DNA from: Campylobacteraceae bacterium
GTDB lineage: Bacteria; Campylobacterota; Campylobacteria; Campylobacterales; Sulfurovaceae
Direction of reading: 5' to 3'
NCBI GenBank assembly: GCA_026985495.1
Contig: JALSQJ010000095.1
Location: 1-12,792, forward strand
DNA length: 12,792 nucleotides
Positions within the stretch are counted from its first letter, which is position 1. Each line of letters starts with the position of its first letter. A program made the position numbers and the translations under genes. The notes beneath the pieces were generated by a model, which was not told where the DNA came from, ran no database searches, and saw only the letters and a program-made list of their open reading frames with translations. Positions 5,389-10,144 of this stretch are shown piece by piece.

Positions 5389-5439
5389 TTAAGTACAAAA
5401 ATGCTAAAGTATCTTACCAAAAATTAAAGGATGATATAT

Positions 5440-5697
5440 ATGAAGTTACTATTAAGCTTAATGATTACAGGAACAGCACTATTTGCAGGAGGAGATATTC
5501 TTCCAGTTAAACCAATTACTAGATTTGAGAAACCAGTAGTTGTATCAAAACCAGCTCCAAAAGGTTGTTATAAACCAAACATTAAAAAATGTCCAGATTG
5601 TGCTGATGTAGCAGAGTTATGTCCTGATGACCCAAATTTACCAATTGCACAAACAGTTCCATGTGAAGGTCTTCTTCGTCAACAAGCTGGTCACTAA
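5440..5697 (+). CDS. Small secreted cysteine- and proline-rich protein of unknown function
   Basis: 85 residues from the ATG at 5440. An ATG at 5431 is in frame but overlaps the AAAGGA ribosome site (5426-5431), so 5440 is preferred; it gives a clean signal peptide MKLLLSLMITGTALFA with likely cleavage before GGD. The mature part, about 69 residues, is rich in Pro and Lys and has five cysteines, including CPDC and the segment from KGC to LCPDD. An odd number of cysteines leaves at least one free or available for metal, cofactor or intermolecular bonding. I recognise no family. It ends at a hairpin (5708-5730) and has its own candidate promoter, so it is probably a single-gene unit, possibly iron-responsive given the Fur-like site. 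Coding is supported by the signal peptide, ribosome site and clear start-to-stop structure. Confidence 0.75.
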   Translation: MKLLLSLMITGTALFAGGDILPVKPITRFEKPVVVSKPAPKGCYKPNIKKCPDCADVAELCPDDPNLPIAQTVPCEGLLRQQAGH

Positions 5698-8203: not shown

Positions 8204-10144
8204 CTAAATTGTTGGTAGTTCTATATTCCCCATATCTCGGGTATCCATATTTCCATCCTCTTCATAAATAACTTCAAATGGAACATCTCTACCTCCACCT
8301 TTTGGTGCATCTACAAAGCGAGTAAATCGTTTTTGGAATATAAGTCGAACTGTTCCTGTAGGTCCATTTCTATGCTTACCTACAATAAGCTCGGTCTCCT
8401 CTTCTGGTTTATTCTGAAACGTATTCTCATACTCTTTACCCTCAGCTTTTGCCTTCATCTCTTTCTCTTTTTCAGCAGCCTCACGATAGACATCATCACG
8501 ATAGACAAACATTACTATATCGGCATCTTGCTCAATAGAACCAGACTCTCTAAGGTCACTAAGCATCGGTCGTTTGTTATCTCGACTCTCAACTCCACGA
8601 TTTAACTGTGAAAGAGCAATAATTGGTATTTGAAGCTCTCTAGCCAACTGTTTTAATCCTCTTGATATTTCAGAAATAACCTGCTGTCTCCCCTCTTTAT
8701 TATCTCCACTCATTAGTTGTAGATAATCAATAATAGCCATACTAATCTCAGGGTGTTGCCCTTTAAGTTTACGCAATTTAGAACGTACATGATGAATGGT
8801 AGCCATTCCTCCATCGTCCACAAAGAGCTTACGACTTGCCATCTTATCGGCTGATTTAGAGAGATTACTCCACTCATCATCTGTCAAATCCCCTACTCTA
8901 AGCTTCTGCAACGGAATAGAGGTCTCCGTAGAAAGTAACCTAAGCATCAACTGTTCAGCTGGCATTTCAAGTGAGAAAAATGCTACGCCTTCCCCTCTCT
9001 CTATGGCTTTTTGGGTCATGTTTAGAACTAATGAAGTGTTATGCGTAACTGTCATATCTTCAAGTAAAAACAACTTATTCCCATCTATCTCAAAACCATA
9101 ATAGTCATCTACTTTATCAAATTCTACTTTAATACCTGTATATTCTATTTCATCAGAAACACTATATTTATCTGAATAACTGAAAGAGAGCTTTGAAAAG
9201 TCAAGTTTACTTTTGTACCCCTTATAATTACTCTTAAATTTAGTGGACTTCTCTAAATATTCCGAAACCTCAATATTTAAAATATCGCCATGTTTATCTT
9301 TCCCCTCATTTCGAGAACGCTTAAGTGATAAAATATGCGACTTATTAACCCTATAATCTATCCCTTTATTTTGACGAACCCAATACATCTCTTCACGTCC
9401 ACGAGCCAAAGAGAGTACTTTTCTAGGCGTTGAATCATCACCCATTAACTCATCACCCACCACAATATCTTCTACTTTTTTTAACTCTCCAGAGTACATT
9501 AATACCTTTGTGCCTTTTCCCAAACATTTCCCCATCGCAGGTCTAGCAGCTACAATAATAAGGTCACCCTTACCAAACCCTTGTGTATGGTCATTTAGAT
9601 TATGGAACCCTGTATCAACCCCAAGAAGTTTTGAGTTTCCCAACGCTTTTAGACGATTTATCTCTTCTATCATAGAGAGAGTTATCTCTTTTGACTCTCT
9701 AAAATCTTCACTCGTACTATCTTGAGTAATCTCATAGAGCTTTCGCTCTACCATATTCATAACCTCTTCGGTTGGTAGGTCATCTTCTATAGTCAATTTT
9801 TTAATAGTAGTTGCCAATGTTGCCAAAGCTCGTTTTGTTGAACGTGATTTAATCTCAGCTAAATAGGCATTGGTGTTGGAGATAGGATTTGAAGCCAATA
9901 CATCTAAAAGAGCAACCTCATCGTAATCTCCATTACTACTCAATTTTGTCTTTAAAAACTCTTCATCTATTGGTTTATCTTCTCGTATCAACTCCTCCAT
10001 TGCCACAAAAAGGTGTTGATGAAAAGGTAGATAGAAATCTTGTACTTTTAACTTTGATGCTATCTCTTCAAAAATTTGAGGGTCAAATATAATTGCTGAA
10101 AGAACTGCCCTCTCTATATTTAAGTTATATATATTTTCACTCAC
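8204..10144 (-). CDS. dnaB: Replicative DNA helicase DnaB, precursor interrupted by a mini-intein
   Basis: 646 residues as translated, 483 after intein removal, a normal DnaB length. DnaB is the hexameric 5'-3' helicase at the replication fork. The N-terminal domain covers about 8-105 and a linker runs to 170. The RecA-like ATPase domain starts at LLGVDTGFHNLNDHTQGF. Its Walker A sequence ARPAMGK (200-206) is cut by the intein and resumes as TSLVLN (370-375). Walker B is IIDYLQLM (471-478); LSQLNRGVESR (511-521), DLRESGSIEQDAD (530-542) and KHRNGPTG (590-597) are all intact. Neither extein contains a cysteine. The start is GTG at 10144 with AGGGG about 8 bases before it; no ATG is available in the right place. 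It lies 20 bp after ispG and 9 bp before comEC. Confidence 0.96.
   Translation of the reverse strand: MSENIYNLNIERAVLSAIIFDPQIFEEIASKLKVQDFYLPFHQHLFVAMEELIREDKPIDEEFLKTKLSSNGDYDEVALLDVLASNPISNTNAYLAEIKSRSTKRALATLATTIKKLTIEDDLPTEEVMNMVERKLYEITQDSTSEDFRESKEITLSMIEEINRLKALGNSKLLGVDTGFHNLNDHTQGFGKGDLIIVAARPAMGKCLGKGTKVLMYSGELKKVEDIVVGDELMGDDSTPRKVLSLARGREEMYWVRQNKGIDYRVNKSHILSLKRSRNEGKDKHGDILNIEVSEYLEKSTKFKSNYKGYKSKLDFSKLSFSYSDKYSVSDEIEYTGIKVEFDKVDDYYGFEIDGNKLFLLEDMTVTHNTSLVLNMTQKAIERGEGVAFFSLEMPAEQLMLRLLSTETSIPLQKLRVGDLTDDEWSNLSKSADKMASRKLFVDDGGMATIHHVRSKLRKLKGQHPEISMAIIDYLQLMSGDNKEGRQQVISEISRGLKQLARELQIPIIALSQLNRGVESRDNKRPMLSDLRESGSIEQDADIVMFVYRDDVYREAAEKEKEMKAKAEGKEYENTFQNKPEEETELIVGKHRNGPTGTVRLIFQKRFTRFVDAPKGGGRDVPFEVIYEEDGNMDTRDMGNIELPTI
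9038..9526 (-). mobile_element. Mini-intein in the DnaB P-loop, no homing endonuclease
   Basis: 163 residues (C207-N369 of the precursor) inserted in frame between K206 and T370 of Walker A. Splicing blocks are clear. Block A is CLGKGTKVLMYSGELKKVED, with nucleophile C207, continuing to VGDELMG. Block B is VNKSHILSL (266-274) with the conserved His at 270. Block F is YYGFEIDGNKLFLLEDMTV. Block G is THN, with penultimate H368 and terminal N369, followed by T370 as the +1 nucleophile. T370 is also the Walker A Thr, so exact splicing restores GKT. No LAGLIDADG or HNH motif is present; the stretch from about 312 to 340 is a short linker where an endonuclease would sit in full-size inteins. Mobility is therefore lost or supplied in trans. 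All splicing residues are present, so activity is expected though unproven. Confidence 0.95.

Follow-up and report, generated by a model that had tools for sequence, protein, structure and literature searches.

The window, by which we mean the whole stretch of 12,792 nucleotides that was analyzed, contains a gene for the replicative helicase DnaB that carries an in-frame insertion in its Walker A motif (Table 1). The gene begins with a GTG start codon and has 646 codons and a stop, and the DnaB N and DnaB_C domains (Pfam) lie on both sides of the insertion. The insertion itself is 489 nt long, encodes 163 amino acids, and contains no stop codons; with its flanks it reads RPAMGK / C...THN / TSLVLN. 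The computed masses are 73.6 kDa for the precursor, 54.7 kDa for spliced DnaB (483 amino acids), and 18.9 kDa for the intein.

Table 1. The dnaB gene of the window and the parts of its intein
Feature	Position	Strand	Basis
dnaB precursor, 646 aa (483-aa extein + 163-aa intein), stop codon included	8204..10144	-	NCBIfam PRK08506 and TIGR00665 above cut-offs
N-extein, residues 1-206, ending RPAMGK (Walker A)	9527..10144	-	domain matches, translation, empty-site relatives
Class 1 mini-intein, residues 207-369, C1 to N163	9038..9526	-	domain match, alignment, solved inteins
N-terminal Hint part, intein residues 1-105, blocks A and B, block B His = precursor residue 270	9212..9526	-	alignment, invariant columns
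Mini-specific linker SKLDFSKLSFSYSDKYSVSDEIE, replaces homing endonuclease	9143..9211	-	alignment
C-terminal Hint part, blocks F and G, ending THN	9038..9142	-	alignment, invariant columns
C-extein without stop codon, residues 370-646, from T370 (+1 residue and Walker A Thr)	8207..9037	-	domain match, translation

The gene for a ComEC/Competence-type membrane protein (PF03772; 6920-8194, minus strand) begins 9 nt past the dnaB stop codon, and a DNA-uptake gene therefore adjoins the intein-bearing helicase gene. Elsewhere in the window, an 88-aa open reading frame (5431-5697, plus strand) has a cysteine-rich later part and, judged by eye, a signal-peptide-like start. The assembly to which the window belongs (262 contigs, 79.75% complete, 5.79% contamination) had one dnaB match, and at this completeness we found in it no second dnaB, no second Hom_end_hint domain, and no match to LAGLIDADG_3 (PF14528). 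Three proteins had the same insert region or one that was 99% identical: P0002 on a contig of 24706 bases, P0003 on one of 12792, and P0004 on one of 20899. The contig of P0003 is possibly that of the window, and the three may not be independent.

By every defining feature that can be judged from sequence, the insertion appears to be a genuine class 1 mini-intein. Residues 207-279 (the first 73 of the intein) matched the Pfam domain Hom_end_hint (PF05203) at 76.7 bits, well above its cut-off of 32.1. Among solved structures, the match to PI-SceI had an E value of 6e-12 and was best over intein residues 1-62; that to a Prp8 mini-intein ran end to end over residues 1-163 (E 1.7e-11). C207, H270, H368, N369, and T370 were invariant among 95 aligned homologues, which were 95 of the 120 listed (the best 120 of 6832). 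The block B motif of inteins is TxxH; that of the window is NKSH. The precursor had no match to the homing endonuclease (HEN) domains PF05204 or PF14528, as is expected of a mini-intein of 163 residues. Relatives with an empty site, RPAMGKT[SAG], in 18 of 34 genomes of the same genus define the exact borders of the insertion. Cys207 is the sole cysteine in the 646-residue precursor, and a class 3 intein of the Mycobacterium smegmatis (Msm) DnaBi1 type was ruled out by the presence of Cys1 together with the lack of any other cysteine. The preliminary description had placed a complete mini-intein at 9038..9526, splitting Walker A. Our analysis confirmed this to the base (residues 207-369, between Lys206 and Thr370 of DnaB), with Cys1, the block B His, the His-Asn-Thr junction, and the matches to Hom_end_hint and to solved inteins all in agreement; its proposal that the +1 residue, T370, doubles as the Walker A Thr was also supported.

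Class 1 inteins splice in four steps, which in the numbering of this intein begin with an acyl shift at Cys1; transfer to Thr+1 comes next, followed by cyclization of Asn163 and a shift back. Judging from the conserved residues, the intein would excise itself after translation by this route, thereby restoring GKT. Thr370 serves at once as the +1 residue and as the Thr of Walker A, so ATPase activity is expected to be missing from DnaB until it has been spliced. In pairs of mini-inteins for which dN/dS could be computed (five minis with DNA, several of the comparisons with saturated dS), the Hint parts had values of 0.00-0.12, indicating that the short form is under purifying selection in these parts. 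The linker between them evolves faster, with dN/dS up to 0.80 in one pair that had few silent changes.

The DnaB P-loop intein family is widespread in Campylobacterota and Bacteroidota and is mostly full-length. The preliminary description had suggested that the window represents a new host lineage for such inteins. That suggestion did not hold: in an even sample of the phylum, 20 of 397 Campylobacterota genomes carried an intein closely related to that of the window (68-100% identity, leaving out 15 weaker matches such as G010 at 43% and G250 at 37%). All 20 carried it at the GK/T site, and the only mini among them was that of the window's own genome. Sulfurovum mangrovi and Sulfurimonas sediminis are among the carriers as named in the database. 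The preliminary description had itself set common carriage by close relatives as a refuting condition, and by this rule the claim of novelty falls. The precedent that had been cited, a P-loop intein in mycobacterial DnaB, is indeed described in the available text of PMC6195587. In the open-license literature we found no paper describing a P-loop DnaB intein in Campylobacterota, and none combining an intein with Sulfurovum or inteins with Hymenobacter.

Nearly all of the same-site relatives were full-length, about 340 residues, with a LAGLIDADG HEN. Within the window's family, 40 of 175 genomes carried a close relative (not counting the weaker matches in G250 and G429, at 43%), two of them known by the C-terminal part only; five had a mini, and both junctions were seen in 32 of the 40. 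The genus of the window was divided: besides the 18 of its 34 genomes with an empty site, ten had the intein and six were not assessable. Three of these ten had a mini (G000, G521, and G541, of which G521 also had a fragment of a full-length allele on another contig) and seven were apparently full-length, one of them (G525) classed so only from about 185 codons ahead of a C-terminal-only match. A scan with patterns from the window's intein, which favors close relatives, gave 66 loci with named organisms: 42 in Campylobacterota (30 full-length, 4 mini, 8 not classed), 23 in Bacteroidota (22 full-length, 1 not classed), and 1 in Pseudomonadota (full-length). One full-length intein (L136) is in a record titled Helicobacter cetorum, isolate SulCav, and the isolate name makes the organism name doubtful. 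Among viral contigs, three stretches fit a pattern and none encodes a relative, in a search that covered close relatives. In a single genus of the order, 13 genomes had weak matches (27% identity over intein residues 57-158, E 4e-4 to 1e-3, in frames of 502 codons), located at L024-L031 and at five further places; these matches are perhaps due to chance and were excluded from the counts. Some relatives have a second DnaB intein: L150 at RESG/SIEQD, L090 at RESG, and P0005, P0008, and P0014 as indicated by an Intein_splicing domain. In P0014, the second intein holds a LAGLIDADG domain and the P-loop intein is a mini.

The short form of the P-loop intein recurs, and it recurs with one type of linker. 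The best 120 of 6832 homologues comprised 23 minis of 157-163 residues and 97 inteins of 295-344 residues. A second protein search was directed at the linker together with the C-terminal part (best 120 of 1318); its top 26 rows were all minis and two more came lower. Both searches together gave 28 minis among the 183 different proteins in the matches listed, which is not a frequency; the five that were added have 153-154 residues. The linker of the minis is of the type YKAKLDFSKLSF...EYSDIKVEYDKVDDYYGF. Full-length inteins have in the same place, for example, YKVAVDFSEK...IEPYFLGLWLGDG, then the HEN, and then RNHQHTGIKVEYDKVDDYYGF. In 15 minis chosen from the 23 of the first search, alignments of the linkers scored better than shuffled sequences in 105 of 105 pairs at p<0.05 and in 99 of 105 at p<=1/300. 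The five minis from the second search were compared by eye only, and P0125 and P0157 were further off. The linkers of the window and of another mini, L086, agree at 68 of 69 nt. The comparisons with shuffled sequences support common descent of the linkers. All minis with a named organism are from Campylobacterota and the full-length relatives extend to Bacteroidota, and we therefore infer that the mini is the derived form and that the HEN was lost once.

Mini and full-length alleles were found on identical or near-identical exteins. P0016 (mini) and P0102 (full-length), compared as proteins only, differed at none of 468 extein residues and at 2 of 137 Hint residues, and the differences between the two inteins were nearly confined to the linker/HEN block. 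Three other mini/full-length pairs (P0022/P0063, P0008/P0072, and P0023/P0035) had 97-98% extein identity. Between the window and P0015, a full-length allele known to us as protein only, 3 of 140 Hint residues differed (98% identical) versus 98 of 480 extein residues (80% identical). In the Hint tree, the fork that unites the window, P0015, P0004 (mini), and P0020 (full-length) had the highest support, 98.

Comparisons at the nucleotide level gave a similar contrast between intein and extein. The N-exteins of the window and L086 were 78.5% identical (21.5% of positions differ), with a dS of 2.47, which is saturated (values above about 1 are unreliable). Their Hint parts were 92.7-93.3% identical, with dS of 0.35 and 0.49, and the first 63 nt of the C-extein, all that L086 holds, were 93.7% identical. 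L086 and the full-length allele L090 were 99.2% identical over 498 nt of the N-extein and 97.5% in the N-terminal Hint part, and from the place of the HEN rightwards the sites that L086 has in common with the window are roughly as numerous as those that it has in common with L090. To the left, 128 sites were shared by L086 and L090 versus 6 by L086 and the window; to the right, the counts were 10 versus 13, or 10 versus 10 without three linker-edge sites that differ through the mini/full-length difference itself. Fisher's test on these counts, with a cut set after the counts had been seen, gave 6e-9, or 6e-7 without the three sites. Both comparisons rest on the L086 contig, which may be chimeric, because it ends 63 nt after the intein and the same bin also has the full-length L150. 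That metagenome bin (isolate 354-166) thus holds L086 with the mini allele and L150 with a full-length allele at the same site. The L150 allele is identical to L090 at 2600 of 2603 nt. Across all pairs, the Spearman correlation between extein and Hint identity was 0.38 in minis (136 pairs of 17) and 0.66 in full-length alleles (4656 pairs of 97). The lower value in minis is consistent with exchange and is no test of it.

Phylogenetic trees indicated both clustering and scatter of the mini state. The trees were built from 108 of the 120 listed proteins and from none of the 63 added by the second search; 12 were dropped as near-identical or shortened (P0002, P0003, P0010, P0018, P0040, P0044, P0050, P0058-P0061, and P0080). 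With 108 rows, 19 of them minis, the Hint tree needed 9 state changes, and the starred inner branches, 2 of 101, forced only 2 of the 9. The extein tree, which was computed from 376 columns (residues 1-206 and 370-539) with a simpler model and carried long-branch and odd-composition warnings, needed 13 changes, 6 of them forced by starred branches. On both trees the mini and full-length labels were clustered (0 of 500 shuffles were as low), and much of the mini/full-length history is therefore vertical. Constraining the minis to one clade in the Hint tree lowered the log-likelihood by 39, and the AU test on this short alignment of 140 columns did not reject the clade (p = 0.224).

Based on these results, we believe that this genuine class 1 mini-intein is an old HEN-less allele of the P-loop family that lost its HEN once and has been exchanged by recombination between hosts (probability roughly 0.7). 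The HEN would have been lost in an ancestor of these minis, leaving the KLDFSKL-type linker, as the likeness of the linkers suggests. From there the mini allele would have moved among dnaB genes in distinct host lineages. Recombination within the flanking Hint parts would swap the linker block and the HEN block, giving rise to mini and full-length alleles on identical or near-identical exteins; the patterns are as described above and the events are our reading of them. One possible route is DNA uptake followed by homologous recombination, and uptake is thinkable because a ComEC/Competence homologue adjoins dnaB. Another is that the HEN of a full-length allele cuts the DNA and the break is repaired from a mini template, and full-length alleles of the same genus could supply the HEN in trans. 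It is possible, and we offer it tentatively, that the minis are a non-autonomous mobile intein that persists and crosses species by means of the HENs of full-length alleles in the same populations. The linker and the HEN would then be cassettes that can replace each other, and the mini state would be reversible and no end point of the homing cycle.

The exchange of an old HEN-less allele has to be weighed against the usual account of minis as a dying stage of the homing cycle, in which the HEN is deleted after fixation and the mini is then inherited with the host gene. In the available text of PMC4071816, such minis are described as inherited mostly vertically or as traveling with their host gene, and the clustering of the mini state on both trees and the unrejected single mini clade fit this account. 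We nonetheless consider it rather unlikely here, given the contrast at silent sites between the intein and the N-extein, the much greater identity of the window to P0015 in the Hint parts than in the exteins, the occurrence of both alleles on identical or near-identical exteins, and the state changes in the extein tree.

Repeated, independent deletions of the HEN, with linkers that are alike through the demands of the fold, would account for the different full-length sisters of the minis on the Hint tree. The start of the linker (YK, hydrophobic, D/E, F) is common to the full-length relatives, so that part of the likeness is ordinary homology, and the Lys at linker position 8, invariant in the 15 minis, also occurs in 10 of 97 full-length rows (69 of 97 have Glu). 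The Leu at linker position 4, however, is invariant in the 15 minis and occurs in 0 of 97 full-length rows, all 97 of which have Val or Ile there. The KLxF motif and the S ahead of I.VEY are likewise absent from the full-length relatives shown, so that deletion alone would not produce them, and the near identity of the window and L086 linkers also argues against this explanation, which we regard as unlikely.

An intein that is kept as a stress switch delaying DnaB maturation, as has been proposed for M. smegmatis DnaBi1, seems improbable. It would lie in the same loop and have a +1 residue with the same double role (as described in the available text of PMC6195587), and its catalytic Cys could perhaps be oxidized or bind metal. 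With one Cys in the precursor, however, a Cys-Cys trap of the DnaBi1 type is impossible within the chain, and 18 of 28 assessable genomes of the genus manage without an intein at the site. The M. smegmatis type of intramolecular disulfide switch (Cys toggle) was ruled out by the lack of a second Cys in the 646 residues. An assembly artefact or a dead intein is highly improbable: the source assembly is fragmented and partly contaminated, but the insertion is in frame, all splicing residues are kept, dN/dS is low, and near-identical proteins occur on other contigs (P0002-P0004, with the reservation given above).

The kind of intein is already known, and its presence in a campylobacterotal host is no novelty, as same-site relatives are common. 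What is of interest is an HEN-less allele that has seemingly been traded between bacteria instead of fading. In the titles and the beginnings of abstracts of the open-license literature, we found no description of exchange of HEN and linker blocks or of the spread of an HEN-less allele. In PMC4071816, as far as its available text goes, the phase of the homing cycle is inferred from intein length and minis are taken as mainly inherited. If our interpretation is true, a mini lineage that has a constant type of linker and changing Hint flanks and hosts means that inference of the phase from length misses such exchange. Empty, mini, and full-length alleles at one site in one genus make a natural system for testing persistence without an HEN. 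The window also provides a 163-residue class 1 mini-intein in a single-Cys precursor of a replicative helicase, from a lineage for which we found no described case in the open-license literature.

The intein of the window resembles several known inteins and differs from each. The Prp8 mini-inteins of PDB 6mx6 and 6owu match it end to end in sequence (E about 2e-11) and have another insertion site, in a eukaryotic splicing factor. Haloarchaeal inteins, like the window's family, have empty, mini, and full-length alleles at one site in related hosts (PMC4071816, PMC10643990, available text). The haloarchaeal minis are read there as HEN losses, in PMC4071816 by length and as mainly vertical. The available text of these two papers does not describe, for haloarchaeal inteins, a common linker block that changes places with HEN blocks, as we infer for the window's family.

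A known parallel in DnaB is M. smegmatis DnaBi1 (site b), an HEN-less P-loop intein whose +1 residue doubles as the Mg-coordinating residue (PMC6195587, available text). DnaBi1 is thus like the intein of the window in being HEN-less, in its place in the P-loop of DnaB, and in the double role of the +1 residue. For DnaBi1 itself, loss of ATP hydrolysis in the unspliced precursor is a reasonable assumption, according to the same text. The two inteins differ in that DnaBi1 is of class 3, with the internal catalytic Cys118, a second Cys48, and Ser at +1, whereas that of the window is of class 1 by its Cys1, with Thr at +1 and no second Cys. The full-length DnaB P-loop inteins of Sulfurovum, Sulfurimonas, Hymenobacter, and Flavobacterium share with the window the GK/T site, C1, and the HN/T junction, and the best segments of full-length P-loop loci are 62-92% identical to the window's intein. 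These inteins have a LAGLIDADG HEN of about 200 residues (as found with Pfam for P0015) where the window has a linker of 23 residues.
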